This document shows positions 48,951-56,160 of a DNA stretch of 64,000 nt, piece after piece (the first letter of the stretch is position 1; each line of letters starts with the position of its first letter). The notes below the pieces were generated by a model. It saw only the letters and a program-made list of their open reading frames with translations. It was not told the DNA's origin and made no database searches. This DNA comes from Ignavibacteriaceae bacterium (GTDB lineage Bacteria > Bacteroidota > Ignavibacteria > Ignavibacteriales > Ignavibacteriaceae), in the NCBI GenBank assembly GCA_013042995.1, contig JABDPB010000027.1:1-64000 (forward strand), given 5' to 3'. The position numbers and the translations under genes were made by a program.

Positions 48951-49856
48951 ATGGGAGAAAAAAGTCGTCGCAATTTTCTTAAAACACTTGGGATAGCCGG
49001 AGCAGCTTGTACAGGCATACCTTCACAAAAACTTATTTCTAAAACTCAGCCTCAACTTTCTGAAGACCGTATGGGAGTGCTGGTTGATACAACTGTCTGT
49101 ATTGGATGTAGAAGGTGCGAGTGGGTTTGTAAAAAAACACATGATATTCCAGCAGGTGAAATTGAAAGCTACAGTGAAGAATCGGTTTTTTCGAAGATGA
49201 GAAGACCTGGAAATGAAGGTTATACTAAGGTAAACAGATATGATAATTATCAAAACCCAAGCAGACCTATAAATGTTAAAGTGCAGTGTATGCATTGCGA
49301 TCAACCTGCCTGTGTTTCAGCTTGTATCGTGGGTGCGTTTTCTAAGAAAGAAGATGGTTCAGTTGTTTGGGATAGCAATAAATGCATTGGATGTAGGTAT
49401 TGTATGGTTGCCTGTCCCTTCCAAATTCCAACGTTCGAATATGAAAATGCCCTAAATCCTGACATACACAAATGTGACTTTTGTGCGGAGAGAACAGAAG
49501 AAGGTTTACTGCCAGCATGTGTAGATATCTGTCCTGTAGAAGCACTAACATATGGTAAACGAAGAGATTTAATTGAAGTTGCAGAAAAGAGAATTAAACT
49601 TTATCCTGATCGCTATATTGATAAGATATACGGTTTTACTGAAGTCGGTGGAACTTCGTGGATGTATCTCGCAAATACTGAATTTGAAAAACTCGATTTT
49701 CCAAATTTAAGAGATAACCCTGCCCCCGGAGTTTCGGAATCAATACAACACGGAATATTTGCGTACTTCGTTCCTCCCATTTCACTTTATGCACTGCTTG
49801 GCGGAATCATGTGGGTTACAAAGAAAAAGAACAACAACAACGGGTGGAACAAATGA
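48951..49856 (+). CDS. Tat-exported 4Fe-4S ferredoxin subunit (HybA/HmcB-like)
   Basis: This 301-residue electron-transfer protein has a twin-arginine signal (SRRNFLKTLGIAGAA). It has four cysteine clusters: CIGCRRCEWVC (50-60), CMHCDQPACVSAC (113-125), CIGCRYCMVAC (145-155) and CDFC...CVDIC (175-194), which together hold four 4Fe-4S clusters. A C-terminal helix (FVPPISLYALLGGIMWV) anchors it to the outer face of the inner membrane. This is the HybA/HmcB/DsrO type. It should pass electrons between the NrfD-type subunit and a periplasmic partner, here the 13-heme cytochrome. The next gene overlaps its stop in ATGA. Confidence 0.92.
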   Translation: MGEKSRRNFLKTLGIAGAACTGIPSQKLISKTQPQLSEDRMGVLVDTTVCIGCRRCEWVCKKTHDIPAGEIESYSEESVFSKMRRPGNEGYTKVNRYDNYQNPSRPINVKVQCMHCDQPACVSACIVGAFSKKEDGSVVWDSNKCIGCRYCMVACPFQIPTFEYENALNPDIHKCDFCAERTEEGLLPACVDICPVEALTYGKRRDLIEVAEKRIKLYPDRYIDKIYGFTEVGGTSWMYLANTEFEKLDFPNLRDNPAPGVSESIQHGIFAYFVPPISLYALLGGIMWVTKKKNNNNGWNK

Positions 49857-51097
49857 TTGAATACGGATTCCAGCCTAAACCTATTAAAAGAAAATTTTTT
49901 ACACCATGGGTAATTGTTATTTCAATTATTGCTTTTACAGGATTAATATTTCTTGCATCAAGGTTCATCTTCGGTCTTGGTTCAGTCACAAATTTAAATC
50001 AGTTTTTTCCCTGGGGAATTTGGATAGGATTAGACGTAGCTGCAGGTGTTGCATTAGCGGCAGGTGGTTTTACTGCTGCGGCACTGGGGCATATATGGCA
50101 CAGAGACAAATACGAAATTTTTATAAGACCTGCTCTTCTCACAGCACTGCTTGGATATACTTTTGTAGCATTAAGTGTTGTTACCGATATCGGCAGGTGG
50201 AATTATGTTTGGCATCCCTTAGTCATGTGGAATGGTAATTCAGCTTTGTTTGAAGTAGGTATTTGTGTTATGGTTTATTTGAGTGTTCTTTATATTGAAT
50301 TTTTACCAATTGTAACAGAAAGATTTATTGGGAAAGTAAATTTACCGGGTTTTTTATCTGTATTAAATAAAGCAATAGACAGTCTGCTGAGAATATTAGA
50401 CCGAACACTTAATAAATTTATGTTTGTTTTTATAATAGCCGGTGTTGTTCTTTCCTGCTTGCATCAATCATCGCTGGGAACTTTGATGATAATTGCCGGA
50501 CAAAAGATGCATCCGCTTTGGCAAACGCCTGTATTACCACTTTTGTTTCTCCTCTCTGCTTTTTCCGTTGGTTTCCCGATGGTAATTATGGAATCACTTT
50601 CCGCATCAAAATCATTTGGAATGAAACCAGAAAAAGATATACTCTCAAGTCTGGCTAAATTTGTAGGACCATTACTCAGTTTTTATTTAGCATTTAAAAT
50701 TGGTGATATGGTTATAAGAGAATCGTTTGTTTATTTAACTGAGTTTAATGCGGCCAGCATAATGTTTACAATTGAAGTGGTAATTGGTGTTGCACTTCCT
50801 TTAAGATTGTTCTTATCTCCATCGGTTCGTGAATCTTCAACAGGACTATTTATTGCATCTATGCTAGTGATATTTGGAGTTTTAATTAATCGGTTCAATA
50901 ATTTTGTAATTGCTTACGATCCACCTTATACAGAAACATCTTACTTCCCATCAGTAGGTGAAATTGCTGTTACGCTGGGATTTGTTGCTCTCGAAATTTT
51001 ACTCTATCGCGCATTTGTTATGATATTCCCGATTATAAGCCAACCAATAAAAGGAGCAATACTAAAAACTAAATATGCTATTAAAGGTGCACGATGA
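49853..51097 (+). CDS. NrfD/HybB-family quinone-interacting membrane subunit
   Basis: I start this at ATG 49853, which overlaps the ferredoxin stop in ATGA and follows GGGTGG. The earlier ATG at 49811 would overlap by 46 bases and add a non-conserved tail. The 414-residue protein has about ten membrane helices. Family marks include FFPWGIWIGLDVAAGVALAAGGF, CLHQSSLGTLMIIAGQKMHPLWQTP and LPLLFLLSAFSVGFPMVIMES. NrfD-type proteins oxidise or reduce menaquinol at the membrane and exchange electrons with the ferredoxin subunit. The following cytochrome gene also overlaps in ATGA. Confidence 0.92.
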   Translation: MIEYGFQPKPIKRKFFTPWVIVISIIAFTGLIFLASRFIFGLGSVTNLNQFFPWGIWIGLDVAAGVALAAGGFTAAALGHIWHRDKYEIFIRPALLTALLGYTFVALSVVTDIGRWNYVWHPLVMWNGNSALFEVGICVMVYLSVLYIEFLPIVTERFIGKVNLPGFLSVLNKAIDSLLRILDRTLNKFMFVFIIAGVVLSCLHQSSLGTLMIIAGQKMHPLWQTPVLPLLFLLSAFSVGFPMVIMESLSASKSFGMKPEKDILSSLAKFVGPLLSFYLAFKIGDMVIRESFVYLTEFNAASIMFTIEVVIGVALPLRLFLSPSVRESSTGLFIASMLVIFGVLINRFNNFVIAYDPPYTETSYFPSVGEIAVTLGFVALEILLYRAFVMIFPIISQPIKGAILKTKYAIKGAR

Positions 51098-52221
51098 AAG
51101 CTCATCTAAAAATATTTATTTTCTTTTTAATTCTTAGTCAGTTTTTAATTACAAGTTTTGCACAGAATCATTCGCAAATGAAATTTGATTGCAGTTTATG
51201 CCATGCTTGTGAAACTCCAACGAAATCAGATCCCTGTTTAATCACTTGCCCTTGTGATGAAATGATGACAGTTCACATTCCGCCGGTTAGATCACCTAAA
51301 ATAATTACAATGCATAAATTGAATGTTAATCAAAATTTATATGAGCCTGTATTATTTTCACACAGAGTCCATGCAGAGATGTCGGAAATGTCTGGTGGAT
51401 GCGGAATGTGTCATCATTACAACCCGTCTGGAAATGTAGTACCCTGTAGCAATTGCCACCAAATAAATAGAAACAGAACAGATATTTCAAAGCCAGACTT
51501 AAAGGCTGCATATCACAGGCAGTGCATTGATTGCCACATGCAATGGAGTGATGATTTTTCTTGCACAAGTTGTCATGAATTAAACGAAAGCGGCAGAACG
51601 GCATTTGAAGAAAAGGAAATTAAAGAAGAAAGAGTACATCCGGAGATAGAAGTTCCTGAAAAACTTATTTACCAAACACCTGATCAAAAAAAATCGCTTG
51701 TTACGTTCTATCATAGTGATCATACGAATTACTTTGACTTTGAGTGTATAGATTGTCATCAGGAAGAAAGTTGCACAAGCTGCCATTTGAAAAATGAATT
51801 AAAATCAGAACAAAAGATTTCAATGAGGCTTAAACATAAATCTTGCAGCCAATGCCACTACACGGATGAAAAATCGGATTGTACCAAATGCCATATAAAA
51901 GAAATTGCAAAACCGTTTAATCACAAACGCCGCACAAGTTTTGAGCTTAAATCCTATCACATGGAATTAAGTTGCATTCGGTGCCACGAATCAAAATCAG
52001 TTTTTACGGGATTATCAAGTAATTGCGCAAATTGTCACAGCGGCTGGAATTTGGAAACATTTGATCATAAAGTAACAGGTCTTATGCTGGATGAAATGCA
52101 CGCTGATGTAGAATGTATAGATTGTCATCCAGGAGAAGATTTTTCTACTGTGCCATCTTGTGAAGATTGTCATGATGAAAAGACATATCCTGATGATAAA
52201 CCAGGTATACTTAAAAATTAA
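51094..52221 (+). CDS. Thirteen-heme periplasmic cytochrome c
   Basis: The 375-residue protein has a signal peptide (to SFAQ) and 13 CXXCH motifs by my count, from CSLCH (C33) to CEDCH near residue 355. This places it with the large class III (cytochrome c3-like) family, such as HmcA. The N-terminus has four further cysteines in CHACETPTKSDPCLITCPCD (C39, C48, C52, C54) that do not fit heme motifs and may bind another metal. It is translationally coupled to the NrfD gene, so the three form one complex linking the quinone pool to a periplasmic wire. The donor or acceptor at the far end is unknown. Confidence 0.93.
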   Translation: MKAHLKIFIFFLILSQFLITSFAQNHSQMKFDCSLCHACETPTKSDPCLITCPCDEMMTVHIPPVRSPKIITMHKLNVNQNLYEPVLFSHRVHAEMSEMSGGCGMCHHYNPSGNVVPCSNCHQINRNRTDISKPDLKAAYHRQCIDCHMQWSDDFSCTSCHELNESGRTAFEEKEIKEERVHPEIEVPEKLIYQTPDQKKSLVTFYHSDHTNYFDFECIDCHQEESCTSCHLKNELKSEQKISMRLKHKSCSQCHYTDEKSDCTKCHIKEIAKPFNHKRRTSFELKSYHMELSCIRCHESKSVFTGLSSNCANCHSGWNLETFDHKVTGLMLDEMHADVECIDCHPGEDFSTVPSCEDCHDEKTYPDDKPGILKN

Positions 52222-52250: not shown

Positions 52251-54134
52251 ATGAAATTCAGACAAGCAAAAACAAAAATTAGTCTGAAACTGATAATTAC
52301 AGTTGGTATTGTAACTGCAGCGATAATTAGTGTCTATTCATATCTCAGTATTCAAGCTCAGCGGAATGAACTTCTCTCTCAAGCTGAACTTTCTGCTAAT
52401 AAATTAAGTGAAACTCTTAAAAAAAGCATGCATTCTAGTATGCTCCTCAACAAACAAGATCAAACGCATGCTATTATTAATGCCTCTTCTGAAGAAGCTT
52501 GCATACTTGAGATAAGAATCTTCAATAAAGAAGGAAGAATAATGTATTCGTCGCAGAAAGATGCTATTGGAGAAATGGTGGATAAAAAAACAGAAAGTTG
52601 TTATGCTTGCCACACTGCAGACGAACCGATACAAAGACTTTCATTTGATGAAAGAACCAGAATTTATAAAATACATCCAGATTCTGCTAGAATACTTGCG
52701 ATTATTAATCCCATTTACAATGAAAATTCCTGCTGGCAATCCAACTGCCATGTGCATAACGAATCCCAAACTGTATTAGGCGTTTTAGATGTAAAAATGT
52801 GTTTAAAGGATGTTGATGCTCAAATTGTTCACAGTGAAAACCGTTCGATAATTTTTGCTCTTATTGCAATTGCCCTTCTAAGTTTGATCATCGGAATTTT
52901 TGTACGCAAATGGGTAGAAAAACCCGTTAATGAACTTGTTACTGCAACAAATCAGGTTGGAACAGGAAATTTAAATTACATAATTAATGATTTAGGTTCA
53001 GATGAATTGGGTCTATTAGCAAAGTCATTTAATAATATGACTAATAAATTGGCTGAAGCAAGAATGCAGATTTTCCAATCGGATAAAATGGCCTCACTTG
53101 GTAGACTGGCGGCAGGAGTAGCGCACGAAATAAACAACCCACTTACAGCAGTTTTAACCTATAGCAGTTTTCTATTGAAAAGAGTAAAAAATAATCCGGA
53201 ATTAGAAGAAGATCTTAAGGTAATAGTAAAAGAAACAAAACGAAGTCGAGAAATAGTTAAAAGTCTGCTTGATTTTGCAAGACAATCAGTTCCTAAAAAA
53301 AATAATGCTGATGTAAATGAAATAATTAATAGCTCAATTTCTGTTGTAGAAAATCAAATCTCGCTCAAGCAAATTAAGCTTGAAATGAATTTAGATAAGA
53401 ATCTCCCTCAGGTAAAGGTAGATTCAAACCAGATACAGCAGGTGTTTATTAATCTTTTAGTAAATGCATCTGATGCAGTGATAGAAAAGAAGGGTAAAAT
53501 ATCTGTTACCTCAAAACTAGCCAATCTATCTCCATTCGGCACATTACAAATAAAAAATGCAGTTTGTTCAAAGCGTCATTCATTAATTGATGAGGAAGTA
53601 AAAATTGATGGAATGCCCACAATAAAAATTAAAGTGAAGGACAACAGTAACGAAGGATGTATCAATATTGATCCTATTTACGGAAAAAACAAGAGTAAGT
53701 ATTCATTAGAAATTAAGGATTTGGATAAAGTTCAACTATCTTGTCCGAAGTGCAATGTTTCGCTTACAGAAAAAGATGCGAACTGTCCAAAGTGTAAATC
53801 AAACATTTATTCATTTGAAGCACCTCCATACGGAATGTTTGAAGGCTGTGTAAATTCTGATTGCAATTGGCAGCAGTGGTCTTCAATTGATGAGGCAGGT
53901 GTACGGGACTACATTGAAATTAAAGTTTCTGATAACGGATGCGGAATTTCCAAAGACGATTTACAAAAGATTTTTGATCCTTTCTACAGTACTAAGGGGC
54001 AAAAGGGAACCGGACTTGGGCTGGCTGTAGTTTGGGGAATACTGGATAATCACGATGGTTCTATTAATGTTGAAAGTGAAGCTGAACGAGGAACTACATT
54101 CACTATTCTGCTGCCAGTAAAACAAAATGTGTAA
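52251..54134 (+). CDS. Heme-type sensor kinase with zinc-ribbon insertion
   Basis: The 627-residue kinase has two membrane helices (about 12-35 and 200-218). Its periplasmic domain contains CYACH (C117-H121) and CWQSNCH (C161-H167), a CX2CH and a CX4CH heme-attachment pattern, suggesting covalent heme. A HAMP linker and the HisKA box AHEINNPL (H292) follow. The ATPase domain has the N-box NLLVNASDAV (401-410), then an insertion of about 135 residues, then DNGCGIS (561), FDPFYSTK and GTGLGLAVVWG. The insert carries CPKC (498-501), CPKC (512-515), C533 and C538, a zinc-ribbon pattern. It follows the cytochrome by 29 bases and is presumably its regulator. Confidence 0.9.
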   Translation: MKFRQAKTKISLKLIITVGIVTAAIISVYSYLSIQAQRNELLSQAELSANKLSETLKKSMHSSMLLNKQDQTHAIINASSEEACILEIRIFNKEGRIMYSSQKDAIGEMVDKKTESCYACHTADEPIQRLSFDERTRIYKIHPDSARILAIINPIYNENSCWQSNCHVHNESQTVLGVLDVKMCLKDVDAQIVHSENRSIIFALIAIALLSLIIGIFVRKWVEKPVNELVTATNQVGTGNLNYIINDLGSDELGLLAKSFNNMTNKLAEARMQIFQSDKMASLGRLAAGVAHEINNPLTAVLTYSSFLLKRVKNNPELEEDLKVIVKETKRSREIVKSLLDFARQSVPKKNNADVNEIINSSISVVENQISLKQIKLEMNLDKNLPQVKVDSNQIQQVFINLLVNASDAVIEKKGKISVTSKLANLSPFGTLQIKNAVCSKRHSLIDEEVKIDGMPTIKIKVKDNSNEGCINIDPIYGKNKSKYSLEIKDLDKVQLSCPKCNVSLTEKDANCPKCKSNIYSFEAPPYGMFEGCVNSDCNWQQWSSIDEAGVRDYIEIKVSDNGCGISKDDLQKIFDPFYSTKGQKGTGLGLAVVWGILDNHDGSINVESEAERGTTFTILLPVKQNV

Positions 54135-54142
54135 ATATTTAT

Positions 54143-54949
54143 ATGGTTGAAGAAAAAGAAATACTTGTGGTAGATGATGAACAGGTTATACTGGATGCAA
54201 TAAACAGAATTGCCTCGGCTGAGGGAATTAATGTGGATACTGAAACTAACGGCAAAGCTGCTTTGAAGAAAGTCTCACAAAAAAGCTATTCATTGCTACT
54301 ATGTGATATACTCATGCCTGAGATGGATGGTTTTATGATTTTAGATGAATTACACAAAATGAAGAAACAAATTCCTATTATAATGATTACTGGGTTTTCT
54401 ACCGTTGAAAATGCAGTTAAATCTATTTCTAAAGGCGCTATTGATTTTGTATCAAAACCTTTTACATTCGAAGAATTGGAAAGTGCTATTAGCCGCGGGC
54501 TAGCTTATAATAAATTATTAATAAAATTAGAAGGAATAAAATCAAAAAAGAACAACTCTGATATTGGATTTGTTCCGTGTCCACCAAAATATCATAGGTT
54601 AGGCAACCACAGTTGGGTAAATCAGGAATCGGAGGGGATAATAATTTTAGGTGCTACTAATTTGTATCTTGAGATAATTAAAGATTTAAAAAGTATTAAT
54701 ATGATAGAATCTGATCAGCGATTAATACAAGGTGAATCCTGTGCAGAATTTATCACTAAAGATGATTTAGCGCATCATTTTCTTTCACCTGTCAGCGGAA
54801 GAATATTTGAAAGAAACGAAAAGTTGTTAACCGAAATAAATCTACTACAGAAGGACCCTTATTTTGGCGGGTGGATTTATAAAGTAATTCCTGAAGATAT
54901 TGAATATGACATGAAATACCTAACACCATGTGCATCTGACAGAATGTAA
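54143..54949 (+). CDS. Response regulator with GcvH-like output domain
   Basis: The 268-residue protein has a receiver domain at residues 5-120 (DDE at 11-13, phosphoacceptor D55 in CDILMPEMDG, K105). Its output domain, about 150-250, is not a DNA-binding domain. It aligns by eye with the glycine-cleavage H-protein: HSWVNQESEGIIILGATNLYLEII, GESCAEFITKDDLAHHFLSPVSGRIFERNE, and LLQKDPYFGGWIYKV. K206 sits about where H-protein carries lipoate, though the hairpin is two residues longer. It lies 8 bases after the kinase gene. The output could be a lipoyl-dependent redox switch or a protein-interaction module (inference). Confidence 0.85.
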   Translation: MVEEKEILVVDDEQVILDAINRIASAEGINVDTETNGKAALKKVSQKSYSLLLCDILMPEMDGFMILDELHKMKKQIPIIMITGFSTVENAVKSISKGAIDFVSKPFTFEELESAISRGLAYNKLLIKLEGIKSKKNNSDIGFVPCPPKYHRLGNHSWVNQESEGIIILGATNLYLEIIKDLKSINMIESDQRLIQGESCAEFITKDDLAHHFLSPVSGRIFERNEKLLTEINLLQKDPYFGGWIYKVIPEDIEYDMKYLTPCASDRM

Positions 54950-55011
54950 AAAATAATTTTTAGTTAAACATAGTTAGTTTGAAAGTAGAAAATATATAAC
55001 AGGGAGATACA

Positions 55012-56160
55012 ATGGCACTCTTTATATTAGCTGTAATCGTATTTATAATTTCTGATTTATTAATCCGATACATTGCAAAAAGAGTTAAGGAAAATAAACT
55101 AAGGCAGGAAAGGGAAGATGGATTAAAAGAAAGTTTGAAACTTGATTTTACGAGTGAAGCAAAAACCTTAAAACGTGCAGAAGTTGAGAAACCAAAAGCC
55201 AGGATTTTATGTGTTGATGATGAGGCAGTAATTCTGGATAGTTTTAGAAAAATTCTTGTACTTGACGGATATTTTATTGATACCGTTGAAACGGGCAAAG
55301 AAGCATTGGGGCTTGTTCAATCTCATTCTTACGATTTTGTATTTACTGATCTTAAGATGCCAGAAATGAATGGAGTTGAAGTTACTAAGGCAGTTAAACA
55401 TATTCGCCCTGACATAGATGTAGTTATTATTACTGGCTATGCAACTGTTGAATCTGCAGTTGAATGTATGAAATATGGTGCGATGGATTATGTGCAGAAA
55501 CCATTTACAGAAGATGAACTTTTAGATTTTACCAAGAAACTTCTTATCAAAAGAGAAAATAGAATAAGTAAATTGATAAAACCAAAGGTTCATATTACAC
55601 ACCTTGATGAAAGCGGTAGTGTTTCCAATACCGAATTCCAGATACCTGGAGGTGTGTTTATTTCCAACGAACATTGCTGGACTAAGGTGAAAGAATACGG
55701 AACTGTTAGAATCGGCATTGATGATTTCGCAAAAAAAATAATAGGAAAAATTGATTCAATTGAATTGCCGAATCTCGGAATGGTTGTAACAAATGGTCAG
55801 CATTTATTTTCAGTCAAACAAGGACATAGAATTATTTCATTCAAATCTCCGGTTAGCGGTAAAGTTGGCAAGATAAATAAATTCATTAATGATGAAATTG
55901 AGTCTTTAAATAATACCACTTATGAAAAAAACTGGGTTTGTGAAGTAGAGGCTGAAGAACTCGATACAGAATTATCATCTTTAAAAATTGGGAAATCTGC
56001 TGTATCATTTTATCAGGATGAAATTGAAAAGTGCAAAGAGATGAAGAAAAAGTTTAGAAAAGGGAAAGAATTAGAGTCAGGAGAATTAATATACTGTGGA
56101 GAAATGGAGGAAATGGATGATGCTGAATGGATAAGTTTTGTAAAAGAGTTTTTTGAATGA
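55012..56160 (+). CDS. Membrane-anchored receiver protein with GcvH-like domain
   Basis: The 382-residue protein begins with one membrane helix (MALFILAVIVFIISDLLI) and a charged linker. A receiver domain spans residues 63-180 (DDE at 69-71, D113 in FTDLKMPEMNG, K163). A second GcvH-like domain covers about 216-313: HCWTKVKEYGTVRIGIDDFAKKII, LFSVKQGHRIISFKSPVSGKVGKIN, and YEKNWVCEVEAEE. K269 in the SVK motif is the candidate lipoyl lysine. A coiled, lysine/glutamate-rich tail follows. AGGGAG lies before the ATG. With the gene at 54143 it gives two receiver-GcvH proteins, one soluble and one membrane-bound. Confidence 0.85.
   Translation: MALFILAVIVFIISDLLIRYIAKRVKENKLRQEREDGLKESLKLDFTSEAKTLKRAEVEKPKARILCVDDEAVILDSFRKILVLDGYFIDTVETGKEALGLVQSHSYDFVFTDLKMPEMNGVEVTKAVKHIRPDIDVVIITGYATVESAVECMKYGAMDYVQKPFTEDELLDFTKKLLIKRENRISKLIKPKVHITHLDESGSVSNTEFQIPGGVFISNEHCWTKVKEYGTVRIGIDDFAKKIIGKIDSIELPNLGMVVTNGQHLFSVKQGHRIISFKSPVSGKVGKINKFINDEIESLNNTTYEKNWVCEVEAEELDTELSSLKIGKSAVSFYQDEIEKCKEMKKKFRKGKELESGELIYCGEMEEMDDAEWISFVKEFFE

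Follow-up and report, generated by a model that had tools for sequence, protein, structure and literature searches.

RESULTS

Genetic organization of the locus

The window, by which we mean the whole 64,000 nucleotide stretch of Ignavibacteriaceae DNA that was analysed, contains a run of six same-strand genes, closely spaced or overlapping, which begins at position 48951 and is closed by the two genes RR1 and RR2 (Table 1). The first three encode a HybA/HmcB-like protein, an NrfD/HybB-like protein and a multiheme cytochrome, in close relatives of which 13 CxxCH motifs were counted. The fourth encodes a sensor histidine kinase and ends 9 bases before RR1. In its predicted periplasmic part this kinase has a CxxCH motif, which reads CYACH in the translation and on which the putative heme binding rests. 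A sequence search of the PDB gave no match to the sensor region. At approximately residues 426-560, between HisKA and the end of HATPase_c, the kinase also has a Cys-rich, Zn-ribbon-like insertion (CPKC...CPKC), and sequences related to this insertion are found in the kinases of the relatives that were read. A scan for promoters and terminators returned sites no more numerous than in shuffled sequences.

Table 1. Features of the six-gene operon, with positions in the window
Feature	Position	Strand	Basis
HybA/HmcB-like periplasmic 4Fe-4S protein, first operon gene	48951..49856	+	Fer4_11 77 bits; HmcB 318 vs 420, HybA 249 vs 263
NrfD/HybB-like quinone-interacting membrane protein	49811..51097	+	NrfD 70 bits; HybB-type 352 vs 450, HmcC 264 vs 550
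Multiheme c-type cytochrome	51094..52221	+	Cytochrom_CIII 63 bits, Cytochrome_C7 47 bits
Membrane sensor histidine kinase, CxxCH in predicted periplasmic part	52251..54134	+	HATPase_c 85, HisKA 58, HAMP 43 bits
RR1: soluble receiver and H-protein-like domain	54143..54949	+	268 aa ORF; Pfam, AlphaFold model
RR1 receiver, residues 7-116, acceptor Asp55	54161..54490	+	Response_reg 104 bits
RR1 GCV_H domain, residues 154-258	54602..54916	+	GCV_H 57 bits; TMt 0.86-0.88 vs E. coli H-protein
RR1 hairpin tip, K206-D207	54758..54763	+	Orthologue columns without conserved lysine
RR2: membrane helix, receiver, H-protein-like domain, C-terminal tail	55012..56160	+	382 aa ORF; Pfam, model
RR2 predicted N-terminal transmembrane helix, ~residues 2-24	55015..55083	+	Hydrophobic stretch, all orthologues read
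RR2 receiver, residues 65-172, acceptor Asp113	55204..55527	+	Response_reg 103 bits
RR2 GCV_H domain, residues 218-335	55663..56016	+	GCV_H 68 bits; gap-free phmmer alignment to 3ift; TMt up to 0.91
RR2 hairpin, K269 (lysine of the sequence-only reading) to His272 (lipoyl position by alignment)	55816..55827	+	phmmer register, column frequencies
RR2 C-terminal tail, ~residues 359-382	56086..56157	+	Aligns with tail of membrane H-like proteins

The comparison set comprised 27 relatives in genome contigs, mostly of the Ignavibacteria type together with one Elusimicrobiales MAG. All six genes are kept in every relative with at least 7 kb of upstream sequence (18/18), and the same six are present at a KSB1 locus (L206); the gene order is rearranged in one relative (L023), and in another two extra genes lie between those for the cytochrome and the kinase in an otherwise conserved operon (L018:4562-7147). 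Membership of the Hmc complex was rejected, with scores below the NCBIfam equivalog cut-offs for HmcA (44 versus 400) as well as for HmcB and HmcC (Table 1). A defence-system reading of RR1 was discarded, there being a single weak match (4e-5) and no stretch that passed alone.

Domain structure of RR1 and RR2

In both proteins a Response_reg domain is followed by a GCV_H domain, each scoring above the Pfam gathering cut-off (30.2 and 22.2 bits respectively; 2e-15, 1e-18). These matches are far above chance and the fusions are real, and the profile search thus bears out the sequence-only reading of this DNA, which had described a canonical receiver followed by an H-protein-like segment in each protein. 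The Pfam scan found no DNA-binding domain in either. The predicted N-terminal helix of RR2, which spans residues 2-41 in the AlphaFold model, sits where receiver-less membrane H-like proteins have theirs; neither this helix nor the six-gene operon had figured in the earlier reading.

AlphaFold models of RR1 and RR2, each built from a 26-sequence alignment, have mean pLDDT values of 90.5 and 80.0, and for RR2 the pTM is 0.51 and the placement of the parts relative to each other is uncertain. A structural match to GcvH, which the sequence-only reading had proposed to look for, was found in comparisons of these models with the PDB: Foldseek returned the E. coli H-protein as the top match of RR1 (TMt 0.86-0.88, rmsd 1.3-1.7) and solved H-proteins as the top matches of RR2 (TMt up to 0.91, rmsd 1.7).

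The residues of the receiver switch are retained among 26 orthologues of each protein. In RR1, D11, D12, D55 and K105 are invariant and T83 is Thr in 25 and Ser in one, and in RR2 each of D69, D70, D113, T141 and K163 is present in 26/26.

The lipoyl-lysine position

The phmmer alignment of the RR2 H domain with M. tuberculosis GcvH (3ift) places GQHLFSVKQGHRIISFKSP over GETFGEVESTKSVSDLYAP, and RR2 aligns without gaps to both 3ift and 3hgb, with a hairpin of GcvH length. The lipoyl lysine of GcvH therefore faces His272 of RR2, with K269 three residues before it. The hairpin of RR1 is longer than that of GcvH by one residue (19 steps from G197 to P216, as opposed to 18), and the residue nearest the lipoyl tip position is D207. 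The sequence-only reading had put K206 and K269 at about the place of the lipoyl lysine and had made the hairpin two to three residues longer than in GcvH; neither claim survives the alignment, and the extra length came from taking an out-of-register lysine as the lipoyl site.

Column frequencies among the 26 orthologues speak against a lipoyl site at any of these positions. Lysine occupies RR1 column 206 in 6/26 (K6, E5, D4, A3 and others) and the K269 column of RR2 in 18/26 (K18, R3, T2 and one each of S, N and Y), as compared with the lipoyl lysine in 19/19 GcvH controls; the D207 column is D18, E4, N2, and that of His272 is N7, T6, K5, G2 and six single others. RR2 also falls short of the NCBIfam GcvH cut-offs (68.4 versus 117 for PRK01202 and 62.0 versus 115.85 for TIGR00527), and the 25 best NCBIfam families listed for RR1 include no GcvH model. 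Judged by alignment register and conservation, the H domains of RR1 and RR2 lack the lipoyl lysine, and the receiver switch is kept in both while the lipoyl site is free to vary.

As the sequence-only reading had noted, no other glycine-cleavage gene was seen at the locus. Other contigs of the genome carry its real GcvH (148 bits) and a GcvT-family gene, and a protein read as an acyltransferase E2 is also encoded elsewhere in the genome. Lipoylation and glycine cleavage are thus covered without RR1 and RR2, and we rejected the operon as part of glycine cleavage.

Related H-like proteins and the origin of the fusions

H-like domains without the lysine, with or without receivers, are found in electron-transfer loci of several phyla, and only two of the 30 rows in an alignment of these proteins hold Lys in the lipoyl column, one of the two being GcvH itself. 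In other families of the class, Fe-S/NrfD genes are flanked by genes for GCV_H proteins of approximately 220-290 aa that have a membrane helix at the N-terminus and, at the C-terminus, a tail of the DGG...W..F..EFL type. The same loci encode soluble GCV_H proteins whose N-terminal part has a C.W...C...C..C motif, and the GCV_H genes are followed by those of a related kinase, also of the CxxCH type, and of an NtrC-type regulator. In three Fe-S/NrfD operons (L093:4219-5034, L095:3560-4294 and L106:4098-4928) the four-Cys motif of the soluble protein reads CIW..AG...Y.LCDR.F.C..CPFD, and is possibly a metal site.

RR2 has the helix, H domain and tail of the membrane H-like proteins with a receiver in between, and looks like a protein of that type into which a receiver has been inserted. 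Phylogenetically, RR2 and its KSB1 relatives (99/86) are nested in the group of membrane H-like proteins (99/89). The position of RR1 is less than fully supported (95/77): it lies with soluble proteins from Zixibacteria, KSB1 and Desulfobacterota that likewise combine a receiver and an H domain. The fusion of receiver and H domain was probably reached by two routes. A single origin is disfavoured (p-AU 0.036 when the main receiver-bearing rows are forced together), albeit by a test that is weak because the group was chosen after the tree had been seen and the divergent Nitrospirota rows were left out.

An NtrC-length regulator adjoins the kinase in 12 of 15 receiver-less comparison loci, and 11 of the 12 match the sigma-54 motif, whereas a receiver protein with this motif is present in only 1/27 window-type loci (L022) within the stretch read, the flank lengths differing between the two sets. 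The receiver-H proteins thus look like replacement outputs of the kinase.

Receiver-H proteins occur in several other settings. One adjoins a PAS kinase in Zixibacteria (L141), and in Nitrospirota they lie beside NuoF/NuoG-like, formate-dehydrogenase-type genes (L142 and L222), with similar layouts at L217-L221 as read without a domain scan. The H-like domain of the Nitrospirota receiver proteins (L142:7351-8115, L143:7669-8433, L145:7842-8654 and L217-L222) is strongly diverged, and that of L142 scores below the Pfam cut-off. A Desulfobacterota locus (L214:551-10717) encodes three receiver-GCV_H proteins, one of which continues into an HdrC-like 4Fe-4S (Fer4) domain, and close to them lie the gene for a CCG protein similar to HdrB and a large ORF for an HdrA/GltD-like flavoprotein. 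ORFs of 972-988 aa with a GCV_H-like domain were seen at L208:9604-12522 and L209:5136-8102, the former fusing FlpD, a molybdopterin-dinucleotide-binding domain and GCV_H.

DISCUSSION

The reading that we favour, with a probability of roughly 55 %, is that the operon encodes a redox phosphorelay in which H-fold adaptors devoid of lipoyl groups are the outputs and act post-translationally on the electron-transfer module. RR1 and RR2 would be the response regulators that answer to the neighbouring CxxCH sensor kinase. This kinase probably reads the redox state of the periplasmic cytochrome or of the quinol pool and would phosphorylate both receivers, that of RR1 in the cytoplasm and that of RR2 at the membrane, to which the helix would anchor it. 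The H-fold output domains, without lipoate, would serve as protein-docking adaptors, and phosphorylation probably alters their docking on the Fe-S/NrfD/multiheme-cytochrome module at its cytoplasmic face and would thereby adjust quinol-to-cytochrome electron flow with no change in transcription. The Pfam and fold matches, the kept receiver residues and the variable lipoyl position are all consistent with this, as are the linkage of the six genes in 18/18 loci and the KSB1 locus, the lack of a DNA-binding domain, and the nesting of RR2 in a group of membrane H-like proteins whose genes adjoin those for Fe-S/NrfD proteins. Operon linkage to a heme-motif kinase and to a quinone/cytochrome module points to possible direct tuning of a respiratory complex by phosphorylation, in place of control over a gene; that the kinase is cognate, what signal it receives, that the electron-transfer module is its target and in which direction the effect runs are points that we infer. 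Reuse of the H-protein fold as an adaptor was one of two options offered by the sequence-only reading, and it fits all of the findings, with reuse of the fold extending across several phyla, although the docking itself is likewise something that we infer.

The other option in that reading was a phosphorylation-controlled lipoyl carrier, with K206 and K269 lipoylated and shuttling electrons or acyl groups. The GCV_H homology and fold, the lysine near each hairpin tip in RR1 and RR2 of the window, and the presence of lipoylated-type proteins elsewhere in the cell would all suit such a role, but the alignment register puts a residue other than lysine at or nearest to the lipoyl position in both proteins, this position varies among orthologues, neither K206 nor K269 is conserved as the lysine of the GcvH controls is, and the NCBIfam GcvH models likewise speak against it; we have rejected this explanation, and it is very improbable. 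A role in transcription by proxy, in which phosphorylated RR1 and RR2 use the H fold to bind a partner encoded elsewhere, either a separate transcription factor or some other protein in the cytoplasm, and the output is gene expression rather than the electron-transfer module, is a better candidate, albeit an unlikely one. In related operons a kinase like that of the window comes with an NtrC-type regulator, and the ancestral output was thus probably transcriptional; however, RR1 and RR2 have no DNA-binding domain, and RR2, with its predicted membrane anchor, appears to derive from receiver-less membrane H-like proteins whose genes lie next to Fe-S/NrfD genes.

It is less probable still that a thiol or metal redox switch, formed by C146, C200 and C263 of RR1 and C310 of RR2, carries the main signal in place of H-fold docking alone and that the receiver is a second input. 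These cysteines are well represented among the orthologues (24/26, 21/26 and 22/26 in RR1, and 26/26 for C310), and a four-Cys motif precedes the H domain in soluble relatives, but those of RR1 are lost in some orthologues with the whole operon, for example in L017, and C263 is lost in L013 and L023 also.

If the phosphorelay through H-fold adaptors is correct, a two-component pathway would have a respiratory complex and not a promoter as its output, and the H-protein fold would serve something besides the carrying of lipoate. Such direct phospho-control of an electron-transfer module would be testable with a few purified proteins. On this reading, genes of anaerobes that are called GcvH on Pfam alone may also encode non-lipoylated proteins. 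A broader and more tentative proposal, to which we give somewhat less than even odds, is that there are widespread and undescribed respiratory or redox complexes with lipoyl-less H-fold docking subunits, to which receivers have been fused on more than one occasion in several phyla, and in which a redox-sensing kinase controls electron flow by phosphorylating these subunits. We found no description of a receiver-GcvH class of proteins in the open-licence literature, and none by a term search of census papers; this absence is weak evidence, since subscription papers lay outside the search.

RR1 and RR2 share with GcvH (PF01597) the fold of the whole domain (TMt up to 0.91), the H-x-W, SPVSG and GW/NW landmarks and, in RR2, the hairpin length, but they lack a conserved lipoyl lysine, have the H domain fused to a receiver, and are encoded with electron-transfer genes rather than with gcvT or gcvP, in a genome that has a separate GcvH. 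They resemble stand-alone or non-DNA-binding response regulators in having a receiver with all catalytic residues, an adjacent histidine kinase and no DNA-binding domain, and differ in that the output is an H-protein fold. The operon is similar to the Hmc complex of sulfate reducers in its HmcB- and HmcC-like subunits and multiheme cytochrome, but its locus has H-fold response regulators, and a general scan and reading of the six genes showed no HmcD, HmcE or HmcF. By description only, it can also be likened to the NrfCD-type cluster of Melioribacter roseus (Mros1571-1572), which has Fe-S and NrfD proteins without a molybdopterin subunit and for which transfer of quinol electrons to multiheme cytochromes of the periplasm has been proposed (PMC3534657), in a paper that mentions neither response regulators nor glycine cleavage. 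LbpA, the lipoate-binding protein of sulfur-oxidizing Hdr-like clusters, has a strictly conserved lipoyl lysine (PMC6067878) where RR1 and RR2 have none, is not described with a receiver in that paper, and belongs to an hdr-like sulfur-oxidation cluster rather than having Fe-S, NrfD, multiheme cytochrome and kinase genes as neighbours. In LbpA, as in RR1 and RR2, the H-protein fold is redeployed outside glycine cleavage together with electron-transfer proteins (PMC6067878), and it is the nearest described redeployment of this fold.
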